Below, one piece after another: positions 12,204 through 54,349 of a DNA stretch of 64,000 nt (position 1 is the first letter of the stretch; each line of letters opens with the position of its first letter). The stretch is from ANME-2 cluster archaeon (lineage in GTDB: Archaea; Halobacteriota; Methanosarcinia; Methanosarcinales; Methanocomedenaceae). The position numbers and the translations under genes are program-made. The stretch spans positions 1-64,000 of the forward strand of contig JAAXOC010000100.1 in assembly GCA_014237145.1 (NCBI GenBank), in the 5' to 3' direction. A model generated the notes under the pieces. That model was not told the DNA's origin and did no database searches. It saw only the letters and a list, made by a program, of their open reading frames with translations.

Positions 12204-12878
12204 ATGACAAACGAACGAATTGAAGAATATCTTGAAACCATACTTTACCTTACCAATAAAAACAAGGGTCCTGCAAAGACTAACCAGATAGCTGAAGAAT
12301 TAAAACTCTCACCCCCAAGTGTTACTGAGATGATCCGGAAACTTTCCGGATCCGGTTATATTAAATACACACCTTACCACGGCGTAACCCTAACCTCAAA
12401 AGGATGCACTGAAGCAATGAGGATCAAACGCCGCCATCAACTGCTTGAAACCTTCCTTGTTGACGTACTGGATCTGGACCCTAAGTTTGCCCATACAGAA
12501 GCCTGTGAAATGGAACATTCCATCTCAGAGACAACACTTGAAAAGATGTGCGCCTACATGGGGCATCCGGAAATATGCCCTGACGGGAATCCCATCGGCC
12601 ATGGTGAATGCTGTCCTACCAAAGCGCCCAACGCATCATATCGTGATTATATTCCGCTGTCAGAATTAAAAGAAGGTGAGCAAGGCACCATTAAGATCAT
12701 ATCCTTAACCAGGGAGATAAAAGACAGGCTGTCGTCCATAGGCCTCATACCTGACCAGGAGATACAGGTGAAACGAAAACTGGGGGAGGGCACCCTCTCT
12801 ATCACAGCCATGGGCACCGAAGTTGCTGTGGGGAAAAATATAGCCAGCAAGATAATGGTCCAGAGCCATGGGGCGTGA
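12204..12878 (+). CDS. DtxR-family metal-dependent repressor with FeoA-like C-terminal domain
   Basis: A 224-residue regulator. Residues 1-65 are the winged helix (ERIEEYLETILYLTNKNKGP, LSPPSVTEMIRKLSGSGYI). The dimer/metal domain follows, with RRHQLLETFLVDVLDL, a CEMEHSIS metal motif and HPEICPDGNPIG. Residues about 150-222 form an SH3/FeoA domain (LKEGEQGTIKIISLTREI, GLIPDQEIQVKRKLGEG). It should sense ferrous iron or manganese and control the feoB gene, which begins seven bases downstream. A matching TTAGG-N4-CCTAA operator lies in its own promoter, predicting autoregulation. Confidence 0.9.
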   Translation: MTNERIEEYLETILYLTNKNKGPAKTNQIAEELKLSPPSVTEMIRKLSGSGYIKYTPYHGVTLTSKGCTEAMRIKRRHQLLETFLVDVLDLDPKFAHTEACEMEHSISETTLEKMCAYMGHPEICPDGNPIGHGECCPTKAPNASYRDYIPLSELKEGEQGTIKIISLTREIKDRLSSIGLIPDQEIQVKRKLGEGTLSITAMGTEVAVGKNIASKIMVQSHGA

Positions 12879-12885
12879 ATAATAA

Positions 12886-14880
12886 TTGAGCTCCTGTTGT
12901 AATACCGATACCGATACAAACATTAATTCCGATGCTACCACCCCCATTACCATTGCACTGGTAGGCAACCCGAACGTGGGCAAGAGTGCTTTCTTCTCCA
13001 GGCTTACCGGTGTAGGTGTGGAAGTATCCAACTATCCGGGCACAACCGTAGAGATCATTAAAGGCACCTTGAAACATGAAGGTGAGTCCATCAATGTTGT
13101 AGATCTGCCAGGTATCTATTCATTATCAGCATCCACTGAAGATGAAAAGGCAGCCATGAATTACCTGATCAGGGAACGCCCTGATGTGGTAATAAATATT
13201 ATTGATGCCACCAGGCTTGCCAGGAACCTTAACCTGACACTGCAGCTGCTTGAGATCGACATACCCATGGTAGTAGCATTAAACCAAGTAGATGCGGCTG
13301 AGCAGATGGGTATCAAGATCGATGTGGAGGCATTGGAGGCAGAACTGGGAGTGCCCGTGATCCCCACCATTGCTATTCGCGGCAAGGGTATTGATACTGC
13401 CCTGCACAGGGCAATTGAGGTGATACGTCCCCTGCCTGTTGAATTACCACACTTCGGGCGCAAACGGTGCAGACGCTGCCAGGTGAAATACGACGACCAT
13501 GTAGAGCAGGCTATTGAAACAATTAGGGAGCAAATTCCTGACATCAGCCGTGGCATCTGTATCAGGGCTCTCGAAGGTGACCGCGACTTCATTAAAGGAT
13601 TCTGCGAATATCCGGAACAAGTGATGGAAGCCGCCACTATACCGCCCGGGATCGAGGAAACCCACGGCCAGCCCATCAAGGATACCATCATAAAGGACCG
13701 CTATGGCGAAGCCGGTGCCATTGAGCAGACTGCCCAGGAAAAGCATCAGGTGCCAAGGCAATTCATTGACCGGATAGATGAAATACTGACATCCAGCCGC
13801 TGGGGGCTGCCGATATTTGCCGTGCTGATGCTAACAATGTTCTATGTAGTATTCAAGGTGGGCGGGTATCTGGAGACACTTATCATCGATATTTTCCAAA
13901 CGTACCTGATAACTCCGGTATCTTTGGCATTGAGCGGGGTACACCCGCTGGTTGTAAGCGCTATAATCTTCGGACTGCTGGGCATGGAAGCGGGGCTTGC
14001 TATTGTAATACCCTTTATAGGCACGTTCTACATCTTCCTGTCGGTGATGGAGGATACGGGATACCTGCCAAGGGCAGCATTCCTGCTGGACCGGTACATG
14101 CACAGGTTGGGACTGCACGGCCGCGCTATCATCCCCATGCTGCTGGGATACGGGTGCAATGTCCCTGCCATTATTGCGGCCCGCACCCTTAACACCCACA
14201 GGGAGCGCATCATCACTATAACCATGGTCGCACTGACGCCCTGTTCTGCGCGGACGGTAATAATCATGGGGCTTGTGGGTGTCTTTGTTGGATTCTGGGC
14301 TGCTATGTCCATCTATTTCATCGAACTGGTGATCATACTGCTGACTGGGTGGATGCTGGGTAAAGGGCTGCCTGGGAAGCAAATGGGCTTTATCATGGAA
14401 ATGCCGCCACTGCGGTACCCTGATATGCAGGTGATAGTGAAAAAGACTTGGTTCAGGATGAACGGGTTCGTTTATGTGGCATTCCCTATACTGATAGTGG
14501 GCAGCAGCATTCTGGGCGTGGTTGATGAGCTGGGCATGCTGGCAGTATTCGAGGACATGTTAAGTTCTGTATTCGTATGATTCCTGGGGCTGCCGGCATT
14601 TGCTGCGACGGCATTCATATTTGGCATCCTGCGTAAGGAGATGGCACTTGAGATACTGGCTGTACTGGCTGGTAAGGCTGTGTTCATTGATGTGATGACA
14701 CCCCTGCAGATATACGTATTCGCACTGGTGGCAACTATCTATGTTCCCTGCGCTGCTACCATAGCAGTGATAGGTAAGGAACTTGGATGGCGCAATATGG
14801 TGCTTATCTCCGGATTCACTATTGTACTGTCTATTGCGGTAGGTGGTGCTGCCAATTTCCTTGGGCTGGCGCTGCTGTAA
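12886..14880 (+). pseudogene. feoB: Ferrous iron transporter FeoB, interrupted by an in-frame TGA
   Basis: The frame opens at a TTG after GGGGCGTGAATAA and encodes the G domain (GNPNVGKS at residue 26, GTTVEI, DLPGIYSLSAST, NQVDA), the CRRCQVKYDDH linker and the membrane domain with GYGCNVPAI. It stops at TGA 14578-14580 after residue 564. The same frame continues without shift for 100 more codons with the family's C-terminal core (FLGLP, IFGILRKEMALEILAVLAG). Full length would be about 665. A single TGG-to-TGA change would explain it, since Trp is plausible just before LGLP. Alternatives are read-through or a sequencing error. FeoB imports Fe(II); DtxR upstream is the likely regulator. Confidence 0.85.
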
Positions 14881-48962: not shown

Positions 48963-49006
48963 TCCCTCTCCTTCAATTATATTTTGATCCAACCTGAAAC
49001 CACGTT

Positions 49007-49091
49007 GCTGAGGTAGCCAAGCGGACCACGGCGCCGGTCTTGAAAACCGGTGGTGCACTGCGCCACGGGAGTTCGAATCTCTCCCTCAGCG
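49007..49091 (+). tRNA. tRNA-Ser (anticodon UGA)
   Basis: An 85-base class II tRNA. Acceptor stem GCTGAGG/CCTCAGC with discriminator G; anticodon arm CCGGT-CTTGAAA-ACCGG gives UGA; a long variable arm (GGTGCACTGCGCC) marks serine; the T-arm contains GTTCGAATC. No intron and no encoded CCA. A T-rich tract (TCTTTCTTTTTTA) follows at once as terminator. Two degenerate copies with the same 3' flank lie at 53103-53186 and 54103-54187. Confidence 0.95.
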
Positions 49092-49156
49092 TCTTTCTTT
49101 TTTAGGAGTATTGTTCTGGTTATTTGTCTTTATATATAAAGAAACCCAATAAAAAA

Positions 49157-49390
49157 TCATATTTTTTTCAAATATTCATCATATTCTGCAGTACTTACTT
49201 CAATTTCTCTTAGAATTTCTTTGATTAATGGTTTCGCCAAATCACTTCTACTATGATGAGGAATTGTTGTGGTTCTCCCATCCGGATGTCTATAAAATAC
49301 ATGAATTCCCTTTTGACGAACTCTTTCAAAACCTAACTTATACAATAACTTCTCCATTTTCCTGGCATCAATAACTTGAAGTTTGGTCAA
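49157..49390 (-). CDS. HicA-type toxin (cargo module 1)
   Basis: About 77 residues starting at a TTG that overlaps the HicB stop (TTGA). Sequence after the start is TKLQVIDARKMEKLLYKLGF, then QKGIHVFYRHPDGRTTTIPH with HicA-like catalytic His region and a closing KPLIKEILREIE helix. HicA is a small mRNA-cleaving toxin. The tail EVSTAEYDEYLKKI is the usual hicA end. It is the first gene to the right of tRNA-Ser. Confidence 0.85.
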   Translation of the reverse strand: MTKLQVIDARKMEKLLYKLGFERVRQKGIHVFYRHPDGRTTTIPHHSRSDLAKPLIKEILREIEVSTAEYDEYLKKI

Positions 49391-49608
49391 CAAGTCACCT
49401 CTACCTGCTGGATTCCCACAAATTCCGGCAGTTCTTGTTTTGCATCTGGTTCCATTTCTTCCAAGCACAATTCAAGTACTTCCTTTAAATTATTTTGCAA
49501 CTCATCAAGAGTCTCCGCTTGTGTATGTGCACCAGGAATTCCAGGAACTATAGCCACATACAAGCCTGATTCTATATCTTTTTCAATATATGCAGTTATT
49601 CTTGGCAT
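49387..49608 (-). CDS. HicB-type antitoxin (cargo module 1)
   Basis: 73 residues: MPRITAYIEKDIESGLYVAI then VPGIPGAHTQAETLDELQNN, the short HicB form with the conserved PG.HTQA.T..E pattern and a following helix (LKEVLELCLEEM). No DNA-binding tail is present, so repression of its own operon is uncertain. Antitoxin precedes toxin by a four-base overlap. Confidence 0.85.
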   Translation of the reverse strand: MPRITAYIEKDIESGLYVAIVPGIPGAHTQAETLDELQNNLKEVLELCLEEMEPDAKQELPEFVGIQQVEVTC

Positions 49609-49763
49609 CTAAATACCTCGATAATTTTCATTGATTTACTAATTACTAATTTGTCTTATCTTTATTTAAATAGAGATGATAGAATGGTTTATTTCAATAT
49701 AATAGCCATCCTGCAGTCAAAGACCCCGGACGACGCTATTATGGTTTGTGCAAGAACAAAACA

Positions 49764-51050
49764 CTAATCAAGAAGCCACTTACACAGGGAAACATATCTA
49801 ACATTCTTCCCGGAAATAATTTCAACCGCCTCATAATCCCATGTAATGATCAGCAGATTATCGCATCGAAGTTCCTCTGAACCTTGCAGGAGAGCTTTTA
49901 CTTCACGCTCTTTTGTTACAAAATCATCAAGTGTGTAACATACCTGTATAAGTTCAGAGACCTTTTTCCCCTCCTTAATGATAAAATCAATTTCCCTGCC
50001 AGATGTAGACTTATAGTAAAACAGATCTCCTTTGCTTCTTCTTTTTAGTTCAATAAAAACAATGTTTTCAATAAGCCTCCCATAGTCGCGTATACCTTGC
50101 AGGGACAGTAGTCCATTATCGACAAGATACATCTTTGATATACTTGATTCTATATTTTTGTAAGAATAAGAGAACCTCTTGAGTGGAAAAACAATAAATG
50201 AATCTTCAAAATAACCGAAATATGTATACAGCGTATTCTTGCTTACCTTATGGCCTTGCGATTTAAGGAAATTATAAAACTTATGGATTGAAAATTCCTT
50301 TGAATTGAATATAGCATTAAGGAAGAGTTTCAGCATCTTTATGTTTTTCACATCATACCTTTCCACAATGTCCCTGAATATTGTCACATCTACTATCTCA
50401 CTCAATATCCGGTCCCACTCTTCCCTGTAACGCACTGTTTCAGGAAACCCGCCGTATCTGACATAATCTTTTAGTTTTTGGATAATTTCCCCCATTTGTG
50501 CTGATGAAAGATATTCTTCATACTCAAGTTTGCCTGCTTTCAGGACTTCGGCGAAAGAGAAGGGATATACATTGTATGTCAGGCTTCTTCCCCTCATGCT
50601 TGTGGCAATTTCTTTACTCATAAGCTTGGATGATGAACCAGTGACAAACACATTGACATTTTCCATATCAACAAGTGTCCTTACAAATCGTTCCCAATCA
50701 GGAATCACCTGTATCTCATCAAGAAATACCCAGGTTTTCTTATTCCTATCAGGACAAAACTCAAAAAACACTTCGAGGAGTGTGTTCAGGTCCTGTGACA
50801 CTGCACCCACCAGTCTTGAATCTTCAAAGTTCACATACAATATACTGTTTTTGTCCTCTTTGCGTGCTAACAGCTCTTTGATTCCCAGATACATGAGATA
50901 TGTCTTACCTGACCTTCTGGGACCTGAAAGAACAACAGCTCTGTCCAGTGGGATGTCAAGAGGGTAGTGTATATCCCTCTGTACAATGTCACGATATCGC
51001 CTTTTCTGGAAATCTTTAATTATGTTTCCCCAGAGTGTCTTTGAGATCAT
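49764..51050 (-). CDS. AAA+ ATPase with DUF4143 domain (cargo module 1)
   Basis: 428 residues. The N-terminal ATPase has AVVLSGPRRSGKTYLMYLGI (Walker A, about residue 42) and TWVFLDEIQ (Walker B). The sensor region has VFVTGSSSKLMSKEIATSMR. The C-terminal DUF4143 domain includes YLVDNGLL and the nuclease-like GREIDFIIKEGK. This family is common in mobile and defence-rich regions of archaea and bacteria; function is not established. It stands alone between HicAB and a truncated elp3 3' copy. Confidence 0.85.
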   Translation of the reverse strand: MISKTLWGNIIKDFQKRRYRDIVQRDIHYPLDIPLDRAVVLSGPRRSGKTYLMYLGIKELLARKEDKNSILYVNFEDSRLVGAVSQDLNTLLEVFFEFCPDRNKKTWVFLDEIQVIPDWERFVRTLVDMENVNVFVTGSSSKLMSKEIATSMRGRSLTYNVYPFSFAEVLKAGKLEYEEYLSSAQMGEIIQKLKDYVRYGGFPETVRYREEWDRILSEIVDVTIFRDIVERYDVKNIKMLKLFLNAIFNSKEFSIHKFYNFLKSQGHKVSKNTLYTYFGYFEDSFIVFPLKRFSYSYKNIESSISKMYLVDNGLLSLQGIRDYGRLIENIVFIELKRRSKGDLFYYKSTSGREIDFIIKEGKKVSELIQVCYTLDDFVTKEREVKALLQGSEELRCDNLLIITWDYEAVEIISGKNVRYVSLCKWLLD

Positions 51051-51199
51051 AGTATTATGTAAGTTGAAATAATTAATAAATATTTCCCTTTATAGAATAC
51101 TATTTTATCTGGCCACCAGCAGATCATATCAATATCTGCACTGAACTGCCGCCGCTATCGGCGCAGCCTACTCTCAGTAGTGCCAAAATGAGGATTTCT

Positions 51200-51342
51200 G
51201 TTGCTTCAGCCAGCAGTTCTTCCCCGTATCCCTTGTGCTGCCATTCCCTTGCCTGCGGTTTTAGCCCCACACCCACCAGCGGCCCGTAGACATGAAGTTT
51301 CCGCACCAGGGCCGCACCCTCAAGCTCGGGCCTGTGCGGGGC
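51200..51342 (-). pseudogene. Truncated copy A of the elp3 3' end
   Basis: Read leftward it encodes RPELEGAALVRKLHVYGPLV then GVGLKPQAREWQHKGYGEEL and LAEAT, after which similarity stops. It matches the GNAT domain near the elp3 C terminus (55408-57009). It lacks both the last 40 codons and the CAACC junction present in copies B and C, and no tRNA follows. The rest of 51051-51416 has no gene. Confidence 0.75.
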
Positions 51343-51416
51343 TTTTGCTGATAATTAGAATATTAAATGCGAAAAGACCGTATAACTTAAATACTTTACA
51401 CAAGATTATTATAATC

Positions 51417-52781
51417 GTGGGTAAAGTGATACCATTCGTAAACAGAAAAAGAGAACTATCCTCTTTAAATAAATTTTTTAATTCTGACCGGGCTGAATTA
51501 ATAGTTATCTACGGAAGAAGACGTATCGGGAAAACAGAACTTATAAAAGAAGCCATAAAGGGACAAAAAGCAGCGTACTTTTTTGTTGAACAGGCACTGG
51601 AAAAGGATAACCTGGACTCGTTCAAAGAAATCATATCAAAAACAATTGATAATCCGTTAATAGCAAAAGCTGACTTCACATGGGAAGAACTATTCCAGCA
51701 GATAGCAAAAGAGGAAAAATTGATCATTATTTTAGATGAATTCCCGAACCTCATAACAGAAAATAAAACCCTGTTATCAAAATTCCAGAAGATATGGGAT
51801 GAAATCCTGAAAAACACCACCATCAAACTCATATTATGCGGCTCATCAATATCAATGATGGAAAGTTACCTGCTGGACCACAAAAGCCCGCTGTATGGAA
51901 GAAGAACAGGACAGTTGTTTATAATGCCGCTTAAAGCCGGATATATACTTGATTTTGGCGTTGATTCAATTGAAGATGCGATAAGGGTATTTGGTATTAC
52001 TGACGGCATACCCGAATATATCAAAGATGTATGCTACCGGCTCAATAGTGGTGAGAGATTAGAAGAAGTTTTCCAGCAGGATAAAGTCCTGTTTGCAGAA
52101 GCGGAGGTGCTGATAAAAAGTGAGTTGAGGGACCCGACAAGATATTTCAAGATACTGAAAGCTATTGCTTTTGGCAATACTAAATTCGGCGAGATTGCAA
52201 ATTATACTGAGTTTCCTGCACCTACTGTTTCGAAATATCTGAGCAACCTGATAAACCTGCATATTGTAAATGAGTCCTATCCGGTCCTGGTTGACAAGGA
52301 GAGAACAAGGAACCGGAGATATCATCTTTCTGATAATTATTTTGACTTTTATTTCAGGTTCATTTACCCGAATAAATCTGAGATTATTTCTACAGACAGG
52401 ATTTCTGGTTTTGAAGCTGACTATAATCGATACCTAGGCAGGATATTTGAAAAGGTGTCTGAAGAGTTCCTTAAGTTAAATACCGATATGCTGCCTTTTA
52501 GGTTTAACAGGAAGGGACGGTGGTGGTTCAGGGATAAGGAGATAGATATTGTAGCACTGAACGACAATACGAGAGAGATTCTTTTTGTGGAATGTAAATG
52601 GAGCAGTTTGAACCAGAATGATGTAAAACATATCCTTGAGTTGTTGAAGCAAAAATCAGGACATTTAAGGTGGAATAATGATAATCGAATTGAGCATTTT
52701 GGCATAATCGCAAAGAAACTACAGGATAAGGAGAAGTTTAGAGCACAAGGTTTTGTGGCGTTCGATCTGGATGATTTTTAA
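51417..52781 (+). CDS. Archaeal ATPase (COG1672, with DUF234-type nuclease tail; cargo module 2)
   Basis: 454 residues. ATPase domain: [20 protein letters not shown], Walker [13 protein letters not shown], Walker [12 protein letters not shown], and [11 protein letters not shown]. The C-terminal region has winged-helix-like [20 protein letters not shown] and [19 protein letters not shown] with the E-x-K of a PD-(D/E)XK nuclease fold. Function of this family is unknown; it is enriched in archaeal accessory regions. A TATA box (TTAAATA, about 51388) lies 23 bases before a GTG at 51417, suggesting a leaderless message; a GTG at 51426 is the alternative start. Confidence 0.85.
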
Positions 52782-52811
52782 GTTTAAGAAAAGAGATGGA
52801 ACTGCCCACCC

Positions 52812-53092
52812 ATATGAACCTGGACATATAAGGTCCATCCCGCTCAAAGCCCAGTTTCCGGTAGTAAGGCCTAACACCTATCCCGCTGATAACGGCAAGC
52901 TTACTAAAACCTGCCTATCCGGCCCTTTTTATAGCTTCTGCCAGCAGTTCTTCCCCGAATCCCCTGTGCTGCCATTCCCTTGCCTGCGGTTTTAGCCCCA
53001 CACCCACCAGCGGCCCGTAGACATGAAGTTCCCGCACCAGGGCCGCACCCTCAAGCTCAGGCCTGTGCGGGGCACTGGAATACCTCAACCCG
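52812..53092 (-). pseudogene. Copy B of the elp3 3' end
   Basis: About 280 bases matching the last 93 codons of elp3. The left edge is at TATGAACCTGG, two codons before the elp3 stop; the right edge is the CAACC junction beyond GCCTGTGCGGGGCAC. Frameshifts break it as a protein. It is joined by CGGAACCACA to a degenerate tRNA-Ser. Confidence 0.85.
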
Positions 53093-53102
53093 GAACCACA
53101 TT

Positions 53103-53186
53103 GCTGAGGTAGCTAGGCGGACCACGACGTCTGTCTTGAAAAACGGTGGTGCACTGCGCCACGGAGTTCGAATCTCTCCCTCAGCG
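53103..53186 (+). tRNA. Degenerate tRNA-Ser copy B (pseudogene)
   Basis: 84 bases with intact acceptor (GCTGAGG/CCTCAGC) and T-arm (GTTCGAATC), the same CTTGAAA loop and T-rich 3' flank as the functional tRNA-Ser. The anticodon stem (TCTGT against AACGG) is mispaired at two positions, the D-arm has changes and one base is deleted before the T-arm. It is unlikely to be a working tRNA. Confidence 0.8.
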
Positions 53187-53268
53187 TCTTTCTTTTTTAC
53201 ATTCCAGAATTTCTTCTGCAATTATGTGCATTTTGAACCTTTTTTAGTGACAAACGAACTATTTTATT

Positions 53269-53487
53269 TTAGTTATTCAACCATTCTTCTCTGGATATTT
53301 TTGCCTGTCTTAATATTCTTGATAATAAATCCACACTAATTTCAGCCTTATGAGGATTTGGAATTGTTAAAACCAGATCATTTTTTACCATAAACGGGTG
53401 TTTCCCACCAGAGTAAGGACCTTCAAAACCCAGCTTATTAAGGCGTTTGACTAAAACATTCCAACTCACTGGAGTAAGTTTAGGCAA
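53269..53487 (-). CDS. HicA-type toxin (cargo module 3)
   Basis: 72 residues: MPKLTPVSWNVLVKRLNKLG, then the HicA catalytic region GGKHPFMVKNDLVLTIPNPH and the closing ISVDLLSRILRQAKISREEW. A typical compact HicA, distinct in sequence from module 1. Its start overlaps the upstream hicB by eight bases. It lies directly behind degenerate tRNA-Ser copy B. Confidence 0.9.
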   Translation of the reverse strand: MPKLTPVSWNVLVKRLNKLGFEGPYSGGKHPFMVKNDLVLTIPNPHKAEISVDLLSRILRQAKISREEWLNN

Positions 53488-53731
53488 CTACCAGTTCTCC
53501 CGTGGTTTCGATATTGAAATTTCCAATGGGAGGAATCGGCAATCTCTTCCTTAATCTAATTATTATCCATTCATCGATCACTTCTTCAAGATTTTTCCTG
53601 CATTCTTCTAGAGTCTTTCCACTAGTCCATACACCTTGAAGTTCTGGCACTTCGCCATAATATGGTTCTTCGTCATCTATTATTTCATATTTGGCATGTT
53701 CAAGTGCAGCCTTAATATATTGGATTAACAT
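53480..53731 (-). CDS. HicB-type antitoxin (cargo module 3)
   Basis: 83 residues with YYGEVPELQGVWTSGKTLEE followed by the CRKNLEEVIDEWIIIRLRKR helix, and a LPIPPIGNFNIETTG tail: the common one-domain HicB form. No DNA-binding domain is evident. It precedes hicA on the same strand with overlap, forming a standard antitoxin-first operon. Confidence 0.9.
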   Translation of the reverse strand: MLIQYIKAALEHAKYEIIDDEEPYYGEVPELQGVWTSGKTLEECRKNLEEVIDEWIIIRLRKRLPIPPIGNFNIETTGELVVA

Positions 53732-53806
53732 GTCGAATACCTCTTCTTCTTTTATTATGATCTATTATATTATATTTTTGGCGCCCGGTTTGAGACTTTT
53801 TGTTAT

Positions 53807-54090
53807 TTACAATATGAACCTGGACATATAAGGTCCGTCCCGTTCAAAGCTCAGTTTCCGGTAATACGGCCTTACACCTATCCCGTTGATAACTGCAAGC
53901 TTAATATAACCTGCCTGCTGTGCCCTTTCTGTAGCTTCCGCCAGCAGTTCTTCCCCGAATCCCCTGTGCTGCCATTCCCTTACCTGCGGTTTTAGCCCCA
54001 CACCCACCAGCGGCCCGTAGACATGGAGTTCCCGAACCAGCGCCGCACCCTCAAACTCGGGCCTGTGCGGGGCACCGGGACACCTTAATC
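53807..54090 (-). pseudogene. Copy C of the elp3 3' end (frame still open)
   Basis: Encodes RPEFEGAALVRELHVYGPLV, then GYGEELLAEATERAQQAGYI-like sequence (GFGEE here) and ends GPYMSRFIL before TAA. It spans the last 93 or so codons of elp3, including most of its acetyltransferase domain, and the frame remains open into the adjoining tRNA-like copy. It differs from elp3 at roughly one base in eight by eye. The right edge (CCTTAATCCGGAACCACC) matches the copy B junction. Confidence 0.85.
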
Positions 54091-54102
54091 CGGAACCACC
54101 TT

Positions 54103-54187
54103 GCTGAGGTAGCCAACCGGACCATGGCACCGGTCTTGAAATGTGGTGGTGCACTTTGCCACGGGAGTTCGAATCTCTCCCTCAGCG
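54103..54187 (+). tRNA. Degenerate tRNA-Ser copy C (pseudogene)
   Basis: 85 bases with intact acceptor stem, T-arm and CTTGAAA loop. The anticodon stem (CCGGT against TGTGG) is broken at two pairs and the variable arm is altered (GCACTTTGCC). Similarity to the functional gene continues about 45 bases beyond the 3' end (TCTTTCTTTTTTACGACTATTGTTCTGG). Probably non-functional. Confidence 0.8.
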
Positions 54188-54349
54188 TCTTTCTTTTTTA
54201 CGACTATTGTTCTGGTTATTTGTCTTTCTCTATTATGCTTCAAGGCATGTTTGTGATGCTCCCCACACTAAAGGTGCGAGGCATCGGTCGGGTGCATGGT
54301 GACTATCTAACGGAAGATTTAAATAAAGGGGTCATACAAATAGAGAAAT

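Follow-up and report, generated by a model that had tools for sequence, protein, structure and literature searches.

One of the feoB genes of an archaeon that appears to be of the ANME-2 type was found to be interrupted by an in-frame TGA, and this copy is probably a nonsense allele under the standard genetic code. What is seen is an ordinary broken copy of recent origin, or else an error of assembly, and not a new way of reading the code.

Overall structure of the interrupted feoB gene

The TGA occupies positions 14578-14580 of the window (the whole 64,000-nucleotide stretch of DNA that was analysed) and is codon 565 of a 664-codon feoB gene at 12886-14880, which starts with TTG at 12886 and carries 564 codons ahead of the stop. 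Behind the TGA, 99 sense codons are followed by TAA at 14878-14880; the preliminary description had spoken of 100 codons of normal C terminus, the exact count being 99 sense codons plus the stop. The read-through protein matched the TIGR00437 feoB profile with a score of 503 bits over positions 1-594 of 594, and Pfam revealed FeoB_N, the cytosolic helical domain, two Gate stretches and FeoB_C. The FeoB domain set, consisting of the G domain, the helical domain and two Gates around the FeoB_C core in one frame, was complete only when the TGA was read through, and the 564-codon ORF by itself retained one Gate. All domains of FeoB (TIGR00437; PF02421, PF17910, PF07670, PF07664) were thus present in order upon read-through; unlike FeoB, the present gene has a stop inside the second Gate domain.

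The hexamer coding measure was 0.58 ahead of the stop and 0.76 behind it, with values of at most 0.01 for the wrong frames behind it, and the nearest start codon behind the TGA was 21 codons further on. Because the coding signal is present on both sides and the nearest start lies this far downstream, the two parts are not simply two adjacent genes. The ORF, the TIGR00437 match and the coding measure all agree with the original observation of an in-frame TGA in FeoB with the frame intact on both sides. The coordinates of the features are given in Table 1; the numbers 560, 561, 565 and 597 are residue numbers, and alignment columns run one higher past residue 192.

Table 1. Features of the interrupted feoB locus and of the repeat region in the window
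Feature	Position	Strand	Basis or remark
DtxR-type metal-dependent repressor with C-terminal FeoA domain, directly upstream of feoB	12204..12878	+	Pfam PF01325, PF02742, PF04023 over cut-off
feoB pre-stop part, 564 codons (G domain, cytosolic helical domain, first Gate, FeoB_C core)	12886..14580	+	ORF and Pfam
Short cluster of changes not shared by the genus relatives compared: R560S, P561S, a synonymous one at codon 563 and the stop at 565	14563..14580	+	alignment
In-frame TGA, codon 565; glycine codon in most relatives	14578..14580	+	relatives aligned
feoB post-stop part, 99 codons and TAA; most of second Gate including invariant Cys622	14581..14880	+	PF07670 profile 38-103 of 104
Possible re-initiation ORF, 79 aa, from an internal ATG lacking a visible ribosome-binding site at proper spacing	14641..14880	+	sequence
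tRNA-Ser	49006-49093; weaker one 54102-54189
Elp3-like tail copies	near 51195-51342, 52812-53111, 53812-54111		90-95% alike
Broken tRNA-like copy	near 53087-53190

The original codon was probably a glycine codon

The site alignment comprised 30 FeoB loci including the interrupted copy, so that 29 relatives were counted. Glycine occupied the position of codon 565 in 23 of the 29, and the remaining six carried Val, Asp, Glu, Glu, Lys and Ala, where Lys and Ala come from gapped, distant alignments. Trp was present in 0/29 aligned relatives; these relatives rule it out as the original residue, in disagreement with the preliminary description, in which Trp was thought to fit the position. The proposed route from TGG to TGA by one transition likewise did not hold, as the same-genus copies covering the site all read GGA (3/3); same-genus genome G005 was unusable here, since its contig breaks off within the gene near residue 624. 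Because the relatives have Gly (GGA) and never Trp, the changed base would be the first codon position, 14578, and not the third. The comparison therefore points to a first-position transversion in a glycine codon as the likely event, rather than a third-position transition from TGG to TGA.

The part behind the stop has hardly diverged

Compared with the nearest relative, the 564 codons ahead of the stop showed 65 synonymous and 34 nonsynonymous differences, and the 99 codons behind it showed 10 synonymous and 3 nonsynonymous differences. Only one private change of the present genome was located behind the stop. The relaxed constraint expected of a pseudogene was thus not seen in these 99 codons, which as a pseudogene would fit only a recent event. 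To judge from these counts, the post-stop tail is still under constraint or was so until very recently. An undecayed tail fits a young null allele, an error and read-through alike, and does not by itself discriminate among them.

There were eight private amino-acid changes, with one shared alignment gap left out, and three of them fell within six codons, namely R560S, P561S and the stop; P561 hardly varied across the 27 sequences aligned. Besides the stop itself, three private base changes fell within 15 nt of it (p 0.008 in a permutation test stratified by codon position), but this test was chosen after the stop had been seen, and a general scan for the densest 30 nt gave p 0.11. Against the nearest relative alone, denser mismatch stretches occurred elsewhere in the locus. 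A local multi-base event, a short chimeric stretch or chance would each explain the cluster.

Predicted effect of the stop on FeoB

The stop cuts the second Gate domain near profile position 37 of 104. With this cut the protein would lose P621 and C622, both invariant in 27 aligned sequences, together with the modelled helices 572-582, 586-595, 606-619, 623-633 and 635-663 (predicted structure, mean pLDDT 78). The membrane part rests on prediction, because among the structure matches listed the solved ones cover only cytosolic FeoB. In Pseudomonas aeruginosa FeoB, a change of Cys675 significantly lowers Fe(II)-stimulated GTPase activity (PMC4847171), and Cys622 is presumably the counterpart of this residue. 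The truncated product would most likely be unable to transport Fe(II).

Interrupted feoB genes are rare among relatives

A close feoB copy (E at most 1e-60) was found in 10 of the 17 family genomes, the interrupted one included, and the other nine copies all spanned the site without a stop (9/9). The pattern named beforehand as contrary to an interruption, that is, relatives ending FeoB at the same place, was seen in none of these (0/9). Family genomes G008 and G010 (92 and 99% complete) had no close copy of the present feoB, so that the family can dispense with this gene. In a wider draw of 392 phylum genomes, FeoB matches at E at most 1e-100 numbered 145 in 141 genomes, and four of the 145 were flagged for stops: the present copy and three others (TAA, TAA and TGA). 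One of these had its stop at query residue 14, ahead of the G domain, and the main alignment of the other two (from residue 14 or 16 to 659) was stop-free, so that the present copy was the only truly interrupted FeoB (1/145). A higher base rate of broken FeoBs was considered and rejected, because the three other stops precede the aligned protein or sit at its very start.

The same genome contains two further feoB loci, both stop-free. One encodes 594 aa. The other is naturally split (L034 and L037, G000 C36:7091-8838) and consists of one ORF for the G domain (194 aa) and one for the membrane domain (420 aa), and this two-ORF layout was also present in many relatives.

UGA functions as a normal stop in the source genome

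Codon usage was sampled in 608 kb of the source genome, the window included, which yielded 366 long ORFs. TGA, which genome-wide reassignment would make rare or absent as a terminator, was the commonest one (TGA 151, TAA 133, TAG 82). The release factor aRF1 was complete and of full length (584 bits), with the NIKS and YxCxxxF motifs in its sequence. Besides this gene, a 174-codon frame (L128, G000 C83:4489-5001) matched the C-terminal half of aRF1 only, and two other, weaker aRF1 matches were present in the genome.

The genome gave 42 tRNA-family matches. No UCA anticodon was found among the tRNAs typed by ARAGORN, with or without introns, in a set that lacks Trp, Tyr and Cys tRNAs and is therefore incomplete. 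One weak tRNA match (L107, G000 C32:36241-36311; 35.4 bits) was left untyped by ARAGORN, and its loop read by eye was TCC; a normal tRNA-Gly(TCC) was also present in the genome. No genome match reached the family cut-off for tRNA-Sec, and SepSecS was not found, the single PF05889 match in the genome being SepCysS (582 bits). An Rfam gathering scan of the window returned two tRNAs only and no SECIS-like element, and the RNA around the stop folded no better than shuffles (z +1.25). The doubt expressed in the preliminary description about UGA as selenocysteine was thus borne out by the tRNA-Sec, SepSecS and RNA-structure searches. Nothing points to recoding, which is not supported.

We also compared the site with a known code in which UGA is read as glycine. 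In its available part, a survey of genetic codes gives this reading only for two bacterial clades, Gracilibacteria and Absconditabacteria (PMC8629427). The present case resembles that code in having UGA where relatives have Gly; in contrast, it concerns a single site in an archaeon in which TGA is in general use as a terminator.

The 608 kb sample contained 78 in-frame stops with coding-like flanks, that of FeoB included (31 TGA, 28 TAG and 19 TAA); 17 were translated, and ten of these, besides FeoB, were scanned with Pfam. Six of the ten represented neighbouring genes or tails (AA_kinase/FMN_dh, SAM synthetase, Archease/RtcB, MscS channel, beta-lactamase fold and Nitro_FeMo-Co), one was without a family, and three broke a domain, in a transposase (TGA), a KaiC-like ATPase (TAG) and an Elp3-tail fragment (TAG). 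The mixed type of the domain-breaking stops is as expected of ordinary pseudogenes. In particular, the DDE transposase piece (L112:1244-1699) has its TGA inside the domain and is pseudogene-like, as is the KaiC-like ATPase piece (L093:12188-12769, minus strand), which has its TAG inside the domain and is without the N-terminal part. The Elp3-tail copy (52741-53088, minus strand) carries its TAG at 52917 inside the acetyltransferase match.

Repeat region elsewhere in the window

At 48991-54233, an Elp3-like C-terminal acetyltransferase tail and a tRNA-Ser(UGA) recur as repeat units (Table 1). Among these repeats are HicA/HicB-like short gene pairs, two AAA-type ATPases and a Fic-like gene, all named by eye. 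The region looks like the product of repeated integration at a tRNA-Ser.

Discussion

The stop was absent from close relatives and TGA is a normal stop in the genome, as expected for a null allele. Glycine codon 565 of one feoB would have become UGA through a first-position transversion, translation would be terminated there by aRF1, and the resulting 564-residue protein would be without most of the second Gate, the invariant Pro-Cys and the last membrane helices. The change would be recent, or an error, given how little the post-stop part has diverged, and the loss would probably be tolerated because the genome keeps two other stop-free feoB loci. The interrupted gene resembles an ordinary nonsense pseudogene or null allele in that one substitution under the standard code, paralogues and intact relatives are present; unlike a typical one, it shows no decay yet and has a few private changes clustered around the stop, and this cluster is predicted neither by a single point mutation nor by relaxed selection. 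A literature search on ANME-2 and FeoB gave no title on such an interruption.

It is possible, although we consider it rather unlikely, that the gene of the cell is intact and that the base in the contig is wrong or stems from a minority variant, or that strains living together were assembled into a short chimera at this point. The assembly is a draft (2.97 Mb in 118 contigs) and the relatives are metagenome-assembled; this is the sole broken FeoB among 145, its post-stop part is undecayed, the private changes cluster around the stop, and one event per about 420 kb of coding sequence would need only a low substitution-error rate. However, the assembly has no second copy of the site, the mismatches to the nearest relative are spread along the stretch, and no coding indel was seen in 3955 aligned bases, where the 4 gap columns all lie past 14877. 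We rejected gene conversion with a paralogue or duplicate contig as donor, as a search of the genome's own DNA with 14480-14700 gave no hit besides the query site and a 20-base chance match. A FeoB that remains functional when shortened or made in two pieces, as the 564-residue part alone or with a tail made from the ATG at 14641, appears very unlikely. A FeoB naturally encoded by two genes does occur in the family, in ORFs of about 194 and 420 aa that are also seen on contig C36 of the source genome, and the tail keeps a Gate match, but the natural split falls between the G domain and the membrane domain rather than inside the second Gate, and no relative is split at the present point. Additionally, the ATG at 14641 abuts GGAG without spacing and lies within a conserved RKEM stretch, and the tail ORF by itself is below the Gate cut-off (18.1 vs 29.6 bits).

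Read-through or recoding of the UGA at codon 565 as Gly, Trp or selenocysteine, giving full-length FeoB, is highly improbable. The tail is constrained and the frame is kept, and the recovered tRNA set is incomplete, with no Trp, Tyr or Cys tRNA typed among the 42 matches; against this stand the use of TGA as the commonest normal stop and the complete aRF1, the lack of a UCA anticodon and of a tRNA-Sec over the cut-off, the identity of the PF05889 match as SepCysS, and the ordinary folding of the RNA at the stop with no Rfam element nearby. Moreover, the stops that break a domain in the sample include both TGA and TAG, and no family relative has UGA at the site. It would be scarcely credible that site-specific UGA read-through yields a short GTPase form and a little full-length FeoB, by which an ANME-2 archaeon would throttle its iron uptake at the level of translation. 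The initial list of a fresh null allele, a read-through site or a sequencing error contained the right answers.

With a nonsense allele under the standard code as the preferred reading, this feoB copy should be annotated as interrupted, not as two genes and not as recoded. A stop that looks Trp-like by eye can stem from another codon, and relatives reveal this at once. The finding has little importance beyond annotation; if real, the allele would show a transporter gene shortly after its loss in a lineage with several feoB loci.
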